This document shows, piece after piece, positions 13,830-56,033 of a stretch of 64,000 nt of DNA. The position numbers were made by a program, and so were the translations under genes. Below the pieces are notes generated by a model. It was not told where the DNA came from, ran no database searches, and saw nothing but the letters and a program-made list of their open reading frames with translations. Position 1 is the stretch's first letter; every line of letters starts with the position of its first letter. The stretch spans positions 372,001 to 436,000 of the forward strand of contig DS990592.1 in the NCBI GenBank assembly GCA_000155695.1, given 5' to 3'. Origin of the DNA: Verrucomicrobiia bacterium DG1235 (GTDB taxonomy: Bacteria > Verrucomicrobiota > Verrucomicrobiia > Opitutales > Opitutaceae).

Positions 13830-16481
13830 TTATAGCGAGAAGACTTTGAGGGTGTTCTCGAGCTCGGCTACGTTGGTGGCGCCGCCCATGGCGAAGTCGG
13901 GTTTGCCTCCGCCGCGGCCGTCGAGCTTGGCGGTGAGGTCGCGGATGATGTCGCCGGCTTTGTGGCCTGCCTTGACGGCTTCTTGTGATGAGAATGCCAC
14001 TACGCTGACCTTGCCTTTAACTTCCGCTCCGAGGACGACGACGCCTTCGCCGAGCTTGCCGATGAGGGTGGCTCCGAGTTGACGCAGGGCGTTGGGATCG
14101 GAGGCTGTCACCTTGGCGGCTACGAGCTTGAGCCCGTTGGTTTCGGTGGCGGACTTCAGGAGATCGTCGGCGAGGTTGCCGCTGGCTTTTTGCTGGAAGC
14201 TTTTGAGCTGCTTCTCGAGCTCGGCGTTGCGAGCGAGAACGATGTCGATCTTCTTGATCAATTCGTTGGGCGCAGTGGAAAGGCTTTTCGATGCGGAAGC
14301 GATGGTGGCTTCCATGTCGTTGATATGCGAATACAGGGAGTCGCCGACGATGGCTTCGATACGGCGGGTACCGGCGGCGATGCCGGATTCGCTGGCGATT
14401 TTCAGCAGGCCGATTTCGCCGGTGGCGCGTACGTGTGTGCCGCCGCAGAGCTCTATGGAGAAGCCGCCGATGTCGACGACGCGAACGACGTCGCCGTACT
14501 TGTCGCCAAAGAAGGCGATGACTTCCTTTGGCTTTTCATTGAAGGGGGTTTCGTACCAATTTACCTTGTTGTTGGCGAGGAGCTGTTCGTTGCAGAGCTT
14601 TTCGATGAGGGCGAGCTGCTCGGGTTTGATGGCCTCGAAGTGGGCGAAGTCGAAGCGGAGGCGTTGGTCGTCTACGTAGGAACCGGCTTGGTGAACGTGG
14701 GTGCCGAGGACTTTGCGCAGGGCCCAGTGGAGGACGTGGGTCGCGGAGTGGTGGCGCTCGATGGAGCGGCGGCGTTTGACGTCGACGATGAGGTTGGCGT
14801 GGTGTCCGAGTATGTTTTCGGCGTCTCCGCTCACTTTGTGGAGGAAGCGTCCGTTGGCGTCCTTGATGGTGTCCAGAACGTCGAAGTGTCGATCTTCGAA
14901 TTCGATTGATCCGGTGTCGCCGACTTGGCCGCCCATTTCGGCGTAGAAGGGGCTGTGGTTGAAAACTAGATACGAGCTGTTGTTTTCGCCTTTGACGACG
15001 TCGATGAGTTCGTCTTCGTCTGCGAGGGTGTTGAACCCAACGAAGCGGGTTGGCTCTGCGTCGTTTTCCCTTTCTGCGATTAGGATCTGTGCGGCTTTCG
15101 CTCCGTCCTTTGATTGTTGGCGACGCTTTTCCATCTCGGCTTCGAAGCCAGCGATGTCGACCTTCATATTCCGTTGGCGGGCCATGAGCTGGGTGAGGTC
15201 GATTGGGAAACCGTATGTGTCGTAGAGGGTGAATGCGTCCAGGCCGGAGATTTGATCCTGTTCGGAAGCGATTTTATCGAAGAGCTGGATGCCTCGGTCG
15301 AGGGTGCGTCCGAAGGCGTCTTCTTCGGATTTGATGATTTTTTGGATGATTTCCTCTTGAGCTTTGAGCTCGGGGAAGACGTGTCCTAGCTGGGCAACTA
15401 CGATGGGTACGAGCTGGGCGAAGAAGCCGTTTTCGAGGCCGAGCTTGCGTCCGTACATGACGGCGCGGCGGAGGATGCGGCGCAGGACGTAGTTGCGGGA
15501 TTCGTTGCCGGGGAGAATTCCGTCGGCGATGGAGCAGCTGAGGCAGCGTATGTGGTCGGCCAATACGCGGAAGATGACGTCCTTCATCTCGACTTCGGAG
15601 ATGTTTTCGAGGTCTTCGGGAAGGGTGCGCTGGTAGGTGTGTCCGGAGAGTTTCTCGAATTCCTGGAAAAGGGTGTCGAAGAGGTCCGAGTTGTAGTTCG
15701 AGGGTGGTGTCGAGAAGTCGGTAAAGTTCTTGGACGTGGCCATGATGCCGGCGACGCGCTCGAAGCCCATGCCGGTGTCGACGTGCTGGTTTTTGAGGGG
15801 AACGAAGTCGCCTTCGGGCGTGGCGTTGAACTGGATGAATACGAGGTTCCAGATCTCGATGCAGTAAGGGGAGTCGGCGTTGACGAGGGAGCCTTTGGTG
15901 TCGCCGGCGGGAGTGAGGTCGATGTGGAGCTCGGAGCAGGGTCCGCAGGGGCCGGTGTCGCCCATCATCCAGAAGTTGTCTTTCTTGTTGCCGTAGATGA
16001 TGTGGACTTTGGGATCGAGGCCGGCTTTTTCGAAGATGGCCTTCCAGAAGTCGTAGGCTTCCTGGTCGAAGGTTGCGGGGTCGCCTTCACCTGGTTTGTA
16101 GACAGTGGCGTAGAGGCGTTCTTTGGGGAATTTCCAGACTTCTGTGATGAGTTCCCAGGCCCATTCGATGGCTTCTTGTTTGAAGTAGTCGCCGATGGAC
16201 CAGTTTCCGAGCATCTCGAAGAAGGTGTGGTGATAGGTGTCGAGGCCGACGTCTTCGAGGTCGTTGTGCTTACCGCCCGCGCGGATGCATTTCTGGGTAT
16301 CGGTGATGCGCGGGTTGGCGGATTCGCGTTCGCCGAGGAAGTAGGGGACGAACTGGTTCATGCCTGCGTTTGTGAAGAGCAGGTTCGGCGCGTCCGGCAT
16401 CAGGGAAGCGGAGGGCACGATGGCGTGCTGCTTGGATGCGAAGAAGTCGAGGAAGGACTGGCGTATTTGGTTGGAAGTCAT
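13830..16481 (-). CDS. alaS: Alanyl-tRNA synthetase
   Basis: 883 residues, the normal length for bacterial AlaRS. The class II catalytic core starts with FLDFFASKQHAIVPSASL and LLFTNAGMNQF, and the motif 2 region includes CIRAGGKHNDLEDVG. The editing domain has the zinc-site motifs HHSATHVLHW (about residue 580) and CGGTHV (about 680). The C-terminal DHHA1 part ends GRGGGKPDFAMGG. It charges tRNA-Ala in the cytoplasm. Start ATG 16481. The next gene upstream on the strand is the broken GxxExxY gene, then leuB. Confidence 0.97.
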   Translation of the reverse strand: MTSNQIRQSFLDFFASKQHAIVPSASLMPDAPNLLFTNAGMNQFVPYFLGERESANPRITDTQKCIRAGGKHNDLEDVGLDTYHHTFFEMLGNWSIGDYFKQEAIEWAWELITEVWKFPKERLYATVYKPGEGDPATFDQEAYDFWKAIFEKAGLDPKVHIIYGNKKDNFWMMGDTGPCGPCSELHIDLTPAGDTKGSLVNADSPYCIEIWNLVFIQFNATPEGDFVPLKNQHVDTGMGFERVAGIMATSKNFTDFSTPPSNYNSDLFDTLFQEFEKLSGHTYQRTLPEDLENISEVEMKDVIFRVLADHIRCLSCSIADGILPGNESRNYVLRRILRRAVMYGRKLGLENGFFAQLVPIVVAQLGHVFPELKAQEEIIQKIIKSEEDAFGRTLDRGIQLFDKIASEQDQISGLDAFTLYDTYGFPIDLTQLMARQRNMKVDIAGFEAEMEKRRQQSKDGAKAAQILIAERENDAEPTRFVGFNTLADEDELIDVVKGENNSSYLVFNHSPFYAEMGGQVGDTGSIEFEDRHFDVLDTIKDANGRFLHKVSGDAENILGHHANLIVDVKRRRSIERHHSATHVLHWALRKVLGTHVHQAGSYVDDQRLRFDFAHFEAIKPEQLALIEKLCNEQLLANNKVNWYETPFNEKPKEVIAFFGDKYGDVVRVVDIGGFSIELCGGTHVRATGEIGLLKIASESGIAAGTRRIEAIVGDSLYSHINDMEATIASASKSLSTAPNELIKKIDIVLARNAELEKQLKSFQQKASGNLADDLLKSATETNGLKLVAAKVTASDPNALRQLGATLIGKLGEGVVVLGAEVKGKVSVVAFSSQEAVKAGHKAGDIIRDLTAKLDGRGGGKPDFAMGGATNVAELENTLKVFSL

Positions 16482-16504
16482 TGTGATCGGGTTGGGCTTT
16501 TTTG

Positions 16505-16535
16505 CCCACGAATTGGACGAATGGGCACGAATGGA
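16505..16535 (+). repeat. Left 31-bp inverted repeat of the GxxExxY unit
   Basis: Pairs with 16946-16976 as an inverted repeat, 25 of 31 positions identical. Each arm contains the hexamer ACGAAT three times at 9-10 bp spacing (16508, 16517, 16527). It lies 24 bp upstream of the alaS start codon. Confidence 0.75.
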
Positions 16536-16573
16536 TTGGGAATTTGTATTGTCGCTCTAATCGAGCGACTATG

Positions 16574-16960
16574 TTATTTAATGATTCGTTTCCACTCTAG
16601 GGAGTTGGCGTGGCCGAAGTTAATGAGGATTCCGAGTCGGAGGTTGGAAGCTTACAAGTAGTTTAGTACTTGGGATTCTTCTTTGCTGGTTAGCTTCGGA
16701 AGGACTTTGAGTTCGACGACAATTTTTTCGTAGGTGATTAAATCTGCGTAGTAGGTTTCGGAAAGGCGGTGGCCTTTGTAATCTACGGTCAGTTCGGGTT
16801 GAGCGACGAATGGAAGCTTCTGAATACCGAGTTCATACTCGTAGGCTTCCTGGTAAATGGGCTCTTTGAATTCACTGCCGAGCTCGTTGTAGACTTCGAA
16901 CGCTGCCCCGATGAGTTTGTAACACTCATCAGGATACAGAACATCTTCATTCGTGTTCAT
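16574..16960 (-). pseudogene. GxxExxY protein gene interrupted by one nonsense codon
   Basis: GxxExxY (PDDEXK_3-like) proteins are small nuclease-fold proteins of unknown role, often present in many copies per genome. The frame from ATG 16960 runs through CYKLIGAAFEVYNELG, YADLITYEKIVVELK (the D...ExK metal-site pattern) and QVLNYL, then hits TAA at 16652-16654. The same frame goes on with the expected family ending (RLGILINFGHANSLEWKRIIK) to a second TAA at 16574-16576. Most family members have Lys after QVLNYL, so one AAA to TAA change explains the break. The signature itself is worn: the first Gly of GxxExxY is Glu. The start codon and first residues MNTNE are encoded inside the right inverted repeat. 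Confidence 0.8.
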
Positions 16961-16976
16961 TCGTTCGATTTGTGGG
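16946..16976 (-). repeat. Right 31-bp inverted repeat, containing the gene start
   Basis: Reverse complement matches 16505-16535 at 25 of 31 positions. Reads ATTCGT, ATTCGT, ATTTGT at 16949, 16959 and 16968. The GxxExxY start codon (16958-16960) lies inside it. It ends 13 bp before the leuB stop codon region (16989). Confidence 0.75.
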
Positions 16977-16988
16977 TGGTCTCGCTCT

Positions 16989-18086
<1,098 letters not shown>

Positions 18087-18170
18087 GAAGGGGGCCATTG
18101 AGGGGGAAAACGCTCTTTTTTAAAGCGAAAACTGCGTGGGTCTCCGCTTCCCTTCGCTCGTGGCGTTTCG

Positions 18171-21100
18171 CTAGGTGGTACTTTGGAGCAGGTAGCGTGA
18201 AAGGGTGTTGATGAGCACGTCTGGACTGAAGGGTTTGGCGAGGTGCTCGTTGGCGCCTGCTTCGGAGGAGCGTAGGTGGTCTTCTCGCATGGCGTAGGCG
18301 GATTGGGCGATGATGGGGACGCTTTGGTTGATGGCTCTGATCCTGCGGGCGACTTCGAAGCCGTCTATCTCCGGAATCTTGAGATCTAGAAGAATAAGGT
18401 GGATGGATCGCGAGGCGAAGATGTCGAGTGCTTCGCGACCGTTTTCGGCCCAGTGGATGCGCGCTCCGGTGCGTTGAAGCACGCGTTCGATGTACTCGTA
18501 GTTTGGCGCTTCGTCCTCGACGACGAGAATGTTGAAATCAGAGAAGTCGGCTTGCGCGGCGCCAGTTTCGGTCGGGAGGCTTGGACTTTTCTGGGGGTAG
18601 ATTTCTACGGGGTTGAATGGAAACGTTACCTTGAAGGTGGTGCCGAGTCCTGGAGTCGAGTCGACGGTGATGCGACCTTCCATGAGCTGGGTTAGCGTCT
18701 GGGTGATGGCGAGTCCGAGGCCGGTGCCGCGGTAGAGCTTTTTGCCTGCCTTGTCGAGTTTGTGGAAGCGGTTGAATATTTGCTGATGCTCTTCTTTGGG
18801 GATGCCAATTCCCGTATCCTGCACGATGAATTCGATAGAGGCTTTTTCGAGCATTTCCTTGTCTTGGCTGACGCTGTAGCCGAGATGGATTTCGCCTTCG
18901 TCGGTGAACTTTATGGAATTGGAAATGAGGTTCCAGAGGATTTGCTTGAGTCGAAGCGGATCGATGAGGACGAGGGTGGCTCCGCCGACGAGGAAGTGGT
19001 CGGGGACATCGCCGGTGAGGCGGAAGTCGACATTATTTTTTTTGTCTTGGCTTAGCGATTCGCGGAAGAGGGCGCCGAGTTCGTCGCAGAGTTCGCCAAC
19101 GTTGCATGGCTGAGGCGATATTTCGGCTTCGCCTGCTTCGATCGCGGAGAGGTCGAGTATGTCGTCGATGAGCGCCATGAGGGACTTGCTGCTTTGGCGG
19201 ATGATGTGGTTGAACTGTTCGCGTTCGACGTCGGAAATGTCCTTATTGTCGAGGATGTGGAGGAATCCGATGATGGCGTTCATCGGGGTGCGTATTTCGT
19301 GGGACATGTTGGCGAGGAAGGCCGACTTTAGTTTGTCCGAGTGTTCCGCTTTGCTTTTGGCGATTTCGAGTTCCTCGGTTCTCTGGTTTACGGTGCGTTC
19401 TAGGATTTCGCCTTGGGACAGGATTTTGGTGTTCGCTTCTTCCAGCCTTCGGTTGGCGCTGAGCAGGTCGGCCGTTCTTTCGCTGACTGCTATTTCGAGG
19501 CGTTTGGCTACTTCTTTGATGTTGTTGATGCGCCAGAGCACGAGTATGGCGGGGACTGCGACGACTAGAAGGGACAGGAGCACGCGAAACCAGATGGTGC
19601 CCCAGAATGGCGGGTAGATGGAGATGGCAAGCGAGTCTCCGACTTCGTTCCAGTATCCGTCTTTGTTGGCGGCCTGAACTCGGAAAATGTAGCTGCCTGG
19701 GTGCAAGTTCGTGTAGGTGACTTCGGGACGGAAGTTCGCGTGTCTCCATTCGTTGTCGAAGCCTTCCAGCAGGTAGCGGTATGTGTTTTCGGAGGGACTG
19801 ATGTAGTCGATGGCGGTGAACTCGATGGTGATGGCGTTTTGCGTTCGGGAGAGGGTTAGGCTCTCGGTGAAGAGGACGCTCTTTTGTAGCTTGCCGACTT
19901 CGCCTTCAGAGGGATCTATTTCGAGGGGTGTTCCGTAGACTCGTATTCCAGTTATGAATACATTTGGCTCATGCGTATCGTTTCGAATCTCTGCCGGCTG
20001 GAAGCGGATGAGCCCTCGGGGTTGTCCGAAATAAAGAGTTCCGTCTGTTCCTTTGGCAACGCTTCCTTCGAAGAAGTCGTTGCTGGCGAGTCCGTCGCTT
20101 AATTTGTATCCTCTGGCGGTTTCGGTTTCGGGGTCGAATCGCGCGAGTCCGTCTAGCGTGCCCAGCCATAGGATGCCTTCGTCGTCTTCGACTATCGAAG
20201 ATATGCTTCGATGGGGGATTCCGTCTGAGACTGAATAGGACTTAAAGTCGTCCGTTTCCGGCTGGTAGCGGTTGAGTCCGTTGTTGGTGGCGATCCAGAT
20301 GGTTCCCTTTGAATTCTGGATGGCGTGGATAGCGTGGGTGCTTGAAAGTGAGTTTTCATTGTCGCGGTCGTCTTGGTAGCGGATGCTTTGGGTTCGTTCC
20401 GGATTTATGCGAGTGACTCCGCTTGAGGACGTGAACCAAATCCTTTGCTGATCGTCAACGAGGACGCTATTGATCCAGTCGTTCACGATCGAGATGCCTG
20501 ATTCGCTATCGTCGCCTCGGCTGTAGTTGTAGAATCGCTCGCTACTGATTTCGTATTTGATGAGGCCGCTGCCATGAGTCGCCAGCCAGAGGTCGCCATT
20601 GGCGTCTTCCGCGATATCGCGAATGTCGTGACCGCCGATGGAATAAGGGTTGTCGGGATCGTTTACGTAGCGAGTGAGGTGGTTTTCGCCGGGCGTGTGC
20701 TTGAAGAGTCCGCCGCGGTAGGTGCCCATCCAGATGTCTCCGCGAGAGTCTTGGAAGACGCTGAGCACGGGTTGTTCGCTGATGCTGTTTGGGTCGTTGG
20801 GGTTCGGCAGGAACTTTTTTACGAGCGTTCCATTTTTTTGATACACGGCTATGCCCGCCGTGGGGTAGCCTACCCAGAGGTTTTCTTCTCTATCTTCGAT
20901 AATGGCGGCGGCTGGCGCGTTTGGTGAAATGTCTGGGTTGTGCTTGTCGAGGTGAACGACTTGGAAACGTTTTGTCCTGCTGGAGAGGCTGATGCCGTCG
21001 TAGTTGCTGCCCAGCCATAGGGAGCCTTGGTGATCGGCCCACATAGCGGTGACTCCGCTTTGCGGGAAGGAGGGATCGGATTTATCGTTGGCCCGATGGA

Positions 21101-55533: not shown

Positions 55534-55575
55534 GTATGAAGATTGAAGTATGAAGTATGAAGTATGAGGGATGAA
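55534..55575 (+). repeat. Left heptanucleotide tract of the four-helix-bundle unit
   Basis: Six 7-bp units in a row (GTATGAA, GATTGAA, GTATGAA, GTATGAA, GTATGAG, GGATGAA) between rlmF and the four-helix-bundle gene. The gene's own start on the other strand (ATGAAGTATAAA) reads like the same repeat, inverted. Confidence 0.8.
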
Positions 55576-55634
55576 GGGGTGGGGGCTTGGTGTGCTCGGC
55601 TTTGATTATCACTCACCTTTAGCGTCGATTTTCT

Positions 55635-56033
55635 TCACTTCTTAAGACCTTTTGCTTTTTTGGAAATTGTGGTGAAAATGGCTAGGAGCTGATTTGTTTC
55701 GTCTTGGAGGTTTTCCAGTTTTTTGGAAGGGACTATTTCTGCTTCAACAAGAAGCTCCAACCAGTAGCTGGTTTCATCCAATTCTTGGAGACAAATGCCT
55801 AGTTTAGCAATGAACTCTGAATTTGAACGCGCTCGGCGGTTTTCTCGATAGTTCGCTCCGACAGATGTGCCAGACCTAAGTATCTGTTTCCCGATTACTT
55901 GAGCCTCAGTGGATTTGGGTAAAGAGCCGTAGAGTTTGATGATTCGCAAAGCGAATTGAGTTGTCCGCTCCCGCAGATCGTCGGTTGCTTCTTCGACCAA
56001 GCAGTTAGTCTCCTCTTCGATTTTATACTTCAT
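55635..56033 (-). CDS. Four-helix-bundle protein (S23/IVP family)
   Basis: 132 residues, all helical: LRERTTQFALRIIKLYGSLP, then ILRSGTSVGANYRENRRARSNSEFIAKLGICLQELDETSYWLELL, the signature of the four-helix-bundle (S23) family first seen in 23S rRNA intervening sequences and also related to the Avd protein of diversity-generating retroelements. It probably binds nucleic acid through its basic surface. Role unknown. The start (ATG 56031-56033) falls in a sequence that repeats the flanking heptamer. The IS110 element stands directly upstream and probably cuts the gene from its old promoter. Confidence 0.85.
   Translation of the reverse strand: MKYKIEEETNCLVEEATDDLRERTTQFALRIIKLYGSLPKSTEAQVIGKQILRSGTSVGANYRENRRARSNSEFIAKLGICLQELDETSYWLELLVEAEIVPSKKLENLQDETNQLLAIFTTISKKAKGLKK

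Follow-up and report, generated by a model that had tools for sequence, protein, structure and literature searches.

A GxxExxY gene between inverted arms of iterated words: a possible REPtron-like pairing of a nuclease-fold protein with dispersed repeats

The leuB–alaS junction of Verrucomicrobiia bacterium DG1235 holds a small gene of the GxxExxY family enclosed by two inverted arms, which raises the question of what kind of element this is and of whether the gene and the arms belong together. The DNA analysed, referred to here as the window, is a stretch of 64,000 nucleotides. The left arm (16505–16535, plus strand) and the right arm (16946–16976, minus strand) match at 25 of 31 positions when inverted. 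A chance origin of these arms was ruled out, as none of 2000 dinucleotide-preserving shuffles was as good (best 21, mean 17.4). Each arm carries three ACGAAT-like hexamers at steps of 9 and 10. These words are located at 16508–16513, 16517–16522 and 16527–16532 on the left and, on the minus strand, at 16968–16973, 16959–16964 and 16949–16954 on the right, where the first word is ACAAAT. The shuffles and word positions bear out the arms and words reported in the preliminary description of this locus. A T6 run (16498–16503, plus strand) lies at the outer edge of the left arm. Two genes flank the unit and lie outside it: leuB, encoding 3-isopropylmalate dehydrogenase (16989–18098, minus strand; PF00180, the name within the family being given by resemblance), and alaS, encoding alanyl-tRNA synthetase (13830–16481, minus strand; PF01411, PF07973 and PF02272). 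The unit had been said to fill the space between them exactly. It nearly does so, with 12 bp on the leuB side and 23 bp on the alaS side, the latter including the T6 run, left over from a gap of 507 bp.

The open reading frame (ORF) of the unit codes for 102 amino acids (16652–16960, minus strand) and runs from an ATG at 16960 to an in-frame TAA (16652–16654). The ATG and the first five codons (MNTNE) reside within the right arm, as had been described. Scored from an upstream TTG start, the ORF reaches 93.8 bits against PF13366 (PDDEXK_3; cut-off 22) and 87.7 bits against TIGR04256 (GxxExxY; cut-off 35), with PF13366 being the sole family matched in a Pfam search. The TAA falls inside the family match, which continues in frame to 16583 (G000:C6:388583-388930, one TAA inside); the remainder past the stop codon (16583–16651, minus strand) corresponds to a lost C-terminus. 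In addition, the GxxExxY signature has an E in place of its first G, and by the standards of the PF13366/TIGR04256 family the window copy has neither an intact signature nor full length. Because the in-frame TAA cuts the family match and the signature is altered, this copy is probably decaying. No match was found in the defence and phage libraries or, by sequence profile, in the PDB.

The window genome contains seven GxxExxY genes, and an ungapped flank comparison located inverted arms at five of them (L003–L007), each with different words. Two wider samples were assembled. The first, at the level of the order, examined 76 of 164 GxxExxY matches in 57 genomes (the seven loci of the window genome, the best locus of each of 29 genomes, and 40 others picked by place). 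From a named species collection with 392 relatives, the second took the 80 best, chiefly from Bacteroidota, Ignavibacteria, Balneolaceae, Verrucomicrobiota, Acidobacteriota and Cloacimonadota, with some Proteobacteria and others. Following the removal of short-flank loci and duplicates, 146 of 156 loci were kept. A triple word was scored where C[AG]CN[AG]A occurs three times at a step of 8–12 with at most one mismatch overall. In the correct orientation it is present left-forward at 105 and right-reverse at 111 of the 146 loci, on both sides at 95, on at least one side at 121 and on neither at 25. GxxExxY genes are therefore regularly found between two such arms, a point that the preliminary description had put forward for checking. 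The wrong orientation gave 23 and 24 of 146, far-flank controls gave 2, 2, 9 and 9 of 95, and shuffled left flanks 14 of 438. An inverted flank score of at least 18 is reached at 103 of the 146 loci, versus 5.4% of 1500 cross-locus pairs, and 11 of the 25 loci lacking a triple word on either side still reach it. Direct (non-inverted) flank similarity of at least 18 is also common (53/146 loci), and nested or tandem arms may be partly behind it. Tandem arm arrays with steps of ~112 and 174 bp adjoin GxxExxY genes at G039:C73:118564-120206 and G056:C6:58215-59145.

Judged by these sequence comparisons, the bracketing layout is a real and general one, and it is linked with the protein. The start codon inside an arm is not a general feature of GxxExxY loci, an in-frame ATG within the left arm occurring at 25 of 86; it arises from words ending in AT followed by G. 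Eight plasmid records match GxxExxY, and among the four examined, L290, L291 and L293 have inverted arms and L292 has none.

The current proposal, to which a probability of about 0.58 is given, is that a protein of nuclease fold and its cognate dispersed repeats are paired in the manner of a REPtron, without being related to TnpA-REP. The window feature would then be a single, probably dying, representative of a system with two parts, the GxxExxY protein and short DNA arms. In most clades an arm would consist of three tandem words, typically CRCNRAN, at a step of 8–10 bp behind a CC-containing leader, and the word would be particular to each locus and to the clade of its protein. The gene would be bracketed by two arms in inverted orientation, and many more arms would reside elsewhere without a gene, either singly or as short inverted pairs. 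The protein would recognise the iterated word on DNA and process the arms. The arms, and now and then a whole arm-gene-arm unit, would be copied or inserted in trans, as is thought for the REPtron. Bracketing, word concordance, the arm–protein link, co-occurrence with the gene, and occupied and empty junctions are what the comparison of sequences provides. DNA binding, cleavage and mobilisation by the GxxExxY protein are what we infer, and the action of a nuclease-fold protein upon dispersed words of its own appears to be the best-supported account of the mechanism. The unit had been suggested to be non-autonomous, which is doubtful, as the encoded protein would itself be the natural candidate enzyme.

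Among 47 relatives, E27, D67, K79 and Q91 are invariant and E77 is nearly so, a pattern which presumably fits a PD-(D/E)XK site. The structure model is confident (pLDDT 95.6). A Foldseek search of the PDB returned, at E ≤ 0.001, chains of SSO0001 only (best 1.5e-4, TM 0.46–0.56 by query), a protein which we take to be a Cas4; lambda-type exonucleases and tRNA splicing endonucleases are weaker neighbours. With TM-scores that are moderate, the GxxExxY protein is predicted to be a small, nuclease-like enzyme of the PD-(D/E)XK fold. The dN/dS ratio is 0.03–0.14 in 8 of 14 pairs with estimable dS, with dS at about 1 or more. Syntenic copies that persist for long under purifying selection suggest host use over simple parasitism.

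The leuB–alaS junction holds a GxxExxY unit in seven of the eight genomes of the genus, with an in-frame stop in two (G000 and G003). Six of the proteins form one clade, joined by L039 of another genus, which also lies beside leuB. The protein encoded in G005 falls into a separate clade, and the junction of G002, 139 bp long, lacks both arms and ORF. The words of the leuB–alaS clade vary by species (CACGAAT, CACAGAT and CACGAAG), with left and right staying matched.

These observations bear on a host-serving enzyme-and-site system, whereby the protein would act at dispersed arms in repair, replication or regulation, much like RecBCD-type nucleases at Chi, and the spread of arms would be secondary. 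Purifying selection and the retention of the leuB–alaS copy in different species as well as in a second genus agree with such a role, as do SSO0001 as the best fold neighbour and lambda exonuclease among the weaker ones. However, at a single orthologous site the words vary from species to species, and both gene and arms are missing, or nearly so, from many relatives. A host-serving system is rated as unlikely, ahead of the other alternatives.

Further junctions were compared by eye under the names rmlD, rmlB and rmlA, which are presumed from sequence resemblance. Between rmlB and rmlA there is a unit in three genomes, a truncated ORF with a left arm and other arms in one, two inverted arms of another word without an ORF in one, and an empty junction in two (21 and 29 bp). 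The same junction in G005 (L273) holds unrelated sequence and a perfect hairpin of ~23 bp where three congeners have the unit. The rmlD–rmlB junction, also read by eye, holds an ORF-less hairpin in four cases, a solo arm in one and a decayed version in one, and is empty in two. At two junctions the unit is present in some congeners and absent from others, which is the comparison that had been advised for leuB–alaS. One by-eye comparison, of G001 with G003 (empty), places the left boundary at the ACC leader, with the right side unaligned. These sequence comparisons revealed no event of transposition, no target-site duplication and no product of excision, and the empty junctions could be losses.

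A strict arm pattern occurs 20 times in the window genome; relatives have as many as 212 such arms, and the reversed control gives 0–3. Four of the 20 belong to three ORF-less hairpins of ~73–87 bp, and the other 16 have no clear inner-side partner within ~1.1 kb. When one arm was taken per relative genome, an inverted partner was flagged for 15 of 30, with 14 at 9–131 bp and one at 316. The left arm of the window has at least 19 further matches in its own genome and at least 2, 2, 1, 1, 0, 0 and 0 in seven congeners; these counts are lower bounds, 37 first-look candidates having been scored in six of the eight genomes. The 19 copies share an element of ~37 bp (a T run and three words), the T run being partly selected by a query that included it, and their surroundings lack comparable conservation. 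A stop-free stretch below 300 nt is found at 2 of the 19, a measure that is uninformative on intergenic position. As 17 of the 19 are solo, the bracketed unit is not what multiplied.

The preliminary description had suggested an ORF-bearing mobile unit, and had named as contrary evidence arms occurring widely without an ORF or GxxExxY copies without arms. The former, half of that contrary evidence, are common, as solo arms and short hairpins, and the arm rather than the ORF-bearing unit is therefore the repeated entity. One further arrangement was observed at L262 3536-14777 (G002:C7), where same-orientation solo arms of one word are clustered and interleaved with hairpins of a second word. 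The only GxxExxY gene of G002 (L064) has this second word.

Arms co-occur with the gene, as an association only. Across 115 genomes of the phylum, at least seven strict arms are present in 40 of 52 PF13366-bearing genomes versus 0 of 63 gene-free ones (Fisher P 1.4e-20, a value that overstates independence as the genomes are related). Seven of the 52 gene-bearing genomes have no strict arm. In the set of relatives, the same threshold is reached by 37 of 40 genomes with the gene versus 0 of 17 without it. Within genus g71, 25 arms are found in the only genome that bears the gene and 0 or 1 in each of nine congeners without it. Five genomes (G105, G094, G136, G141 and G152) have 3 to 7 GxxExxY genes and no strict arms, and their arm grammar may be different.

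The link between arm and protein was measured crosswise, by comparing the left arm of one locus with the right arm of another and correlating this similarity with protein similarity between genomes. The correlation is r 0.359, versus 0.058 (sd 0.037) after permuting arms between genes within each genome, with 0 of 1000 permutations as high. Excluding pairs that share similar flanking DNA or proteins, it is 0.192 versus 0.045 (sd 0.032), again with 0 of 1000 as high. The link by which arm type appears to follow the protein beyond the host is modest but clear. By-eye inspection of clade tables found that one clade (L016, L030, L032, L045 and L053) tends to a four-word arm. Another (L002, L056, L058, L061, L063 and L068) has no triple-word arms but other repeats. 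The flanking repeats of this second clade are of small palindromic words such as GATCCCGCTTTGCGGGA.

It was also considered whether all ORF-less arms are seeded by the genome's own gene. ORF-less arms are closer to the gene arms of their own genome than to those of others in 8 of 10 genomes; the idea was rejected in this general form as the effect is clear (≤4 of 200 draws) in only three of the ten (G055, G003 and G026). Arms located at GxxExxY genes or close to them had been dropped, as had some copies in arrays (4/38 in G055, 2/25 in G006, 6/19 in G003, 6/22 in G001, 12/23 in G039, 1/12 in G044 and 1/10 in G038). G026 entered with 35 of its 98 arms and G056 was left out. Part of the genes was used in four genomes (1/3 in G026 and G039, 1/5 in G044 and 1/4 in G038).

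A different origin would make the arms older, REP-like host repeats, with the GxxExxY gene inserted between two of them in the manner of a homing nuclease. Arms do far outnumber genes (212 versus 9 in G012 and 116 versus 1 in G035), and ORF-less hairpins exist whose loop could receive an ORF. This is countered by the finding that arm type follows the protein even among genes of one genome, and by the 50 of 63 gene-free genomes in which there is no strict arm, with a maximum of 6 in the rest. The older-repeat origin comes next in order of probability and is considered improbable.

The words themselves were compared at 86 of the 95 two-armed loci, namely where left and right arms have an identical step. 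The motif was the sole basis for choosing arms; since it constrains part of each word in advance, the comparison rests on the variable positions. At these positions agreement is 0.819 for paired words, 0.828 and 0.823 within the same arm, 0.831 for unpaired words of opposite arms and 0.449 for other loci. Spacer agreement is 0.466 for paired, 0.480 for unpaired and 0.310 for other loci. Words vary between loci and agree within a locus across all six repeats equally. This looks like six copies of one recognition word, a pattern that fits site recognition over stem pairing. A motif-free autocorrelation of GxxExxY flanks found no periodic signal (6/292 versus 4/274 far flanks), and the repeat step therefore rests on the word motif.

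These figures bear on an RNA element resembling the intervening sequences (IVS) of 23S rRNA, in which the arms would pair in RNA and RNase III would process the stem. The preliminary description had pointed to this layout, and a small ORF does lie between complementary arms. Moreover, genes of PF05635, the IVS protein family, also occur between inverted iterated arms at loci presumed to lie outside rRNA. Paired words are, however, no more concordant than unpaired ones, and left–right mismatches that are G-U compatible are not enriched on the sense strand (77, versus 116 on the antisense strand). Both results argue against a stem, which would favour an excess of each, and the IVS comparison is not supported as a mechanism. 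As described in PMC4990558, the IVS with an S23 protein ORF resembles the present unit as an inserted element with a small ORF, vertical persistence and ORF decay; the window unit differs in lying outside rRNA, in a constraint on DNA words rather than on a stem, and in its protein family. The unit is located between leuB and alaS, its protein belongs to PF13366 and not to S23/IVP (PF05635), and window 14000–19000 has no Rfam match. An RNA element of this type is very improbable.

Least probable of all, an unrecognised insertion sequence with ordinary terminal inverted repeats and the GxxExxY gene as cargo would account for a gene with inverted ends at otherwise short junctions, but the mapped units L263 3790-4242 and L265 1949-2411 have no other ORF of at least 70 aa and the arms are iterated words that track the GxxExxY protein itself. 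Miniature inverted-repeat transposable elements (MITEs) are short, gene-free and dispersed, with inverted ends. The window arms are likewise short, gene-free and dispersed with inverted ends; they differ in that 17 of 19 copies are single, and perhaps also in that no target-site duplication was found at the junctions compared.

The REPtron-like pairing remains the preferred reading. The closest known systems are REPtrons, which are TnpA-REP (RAYT) genes with flanking REPs, and REPINs (PMC3116915 and PMC8266576). Shared with the GxxExxY system are a repeat-associated gene, many short gene-free copies as singlets or inverted doublets, and co-evolved types of enzyme and repeat. The two differ in their enzymes, TnpA-REP being a relative of HuH transposases and GxxExxY being PD-(D/E)XK-like, and in their repeats, as REPs are palindromic whereas GxxExxY arms are tandem words, a single arm of which is not a palindrome. 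No HuH or Y1 transposase-like protein is present at the window unit (PF13366 only, with restriction-endonuclease-like nucleases as the best Foldseek matches). The repeats do bracket the gene in inverted orientation on both sides (95/146), and gene-free copies abound in gene-bearing genomes (40/52 versus 0/63), an association with 7 of the 52 having none.

PMC8934634 describes a GxxExxY-family gene beside a reverse transcriptase. Within the excerpts seen of the literature naming the family, no account of flanking iterated arms or of a function was found, nor, in the literature searched, any description of the GxxExxY and iterated-arm arrangement. A literature search on the arm words found no bacterial repeat paper. 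If the REPtron-like reading is true, it would provide a function and a DNA substrate for a widespread, uncharacterised nuclease-like family, and account for a large group of repeats that are scattered through the genomes of environmental bacteria. It would also constitute a second route to REP-like repeat dispersal, independent of HuH enzymes, and supply a natural series of matched enzyme–word pairs with changed specificity in which recognition is directly testable.

A parallel was noted for PF05635 (23S-IVP four-helix) proteins, sampled as 30 best-per-genome loci of the order and the window copy. The inverted flank score is at least 18 at 23 of 31 loci versus 3.3% of cross pairs and 1 of 30 far flanks, and autocorrelation detects a 7-bp step in 27 of 62 flanks versus 1 of 60 far flanks. 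Triple-word arms are few (left 8, right 2 and both 1 of 31). PF05635 and GxxExxY copy numbers correlate across 57 genomes (rho 0.75). It may tentatively be postulated, with considerable doubt, that there is a general, undescribed class of enzyme-and-word systems, in which small proteins with a DNA specificity that changes from clade to clade carry their own iterated recognition words as inverted brackets and seed the genome with them. This class would hold at least two unrelated families, GxxExxY with a step of 8–10 bp and PF05635 with a step of 7 bp.

The PF05635 loci of the 30 relatives (L162–L191) are mostly bracketed by inverted, copy-specific words, in many cases with a 7-bp step, a grammar unlike that of GxxExxY. 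The PF05635 gene of the window (55677–55970, minus strand) has a 7-bp iterated word (ATGAAGT-like) downstream, with the repeats at ~55535–55577, and its flanks match weakly when inverted (score 14).
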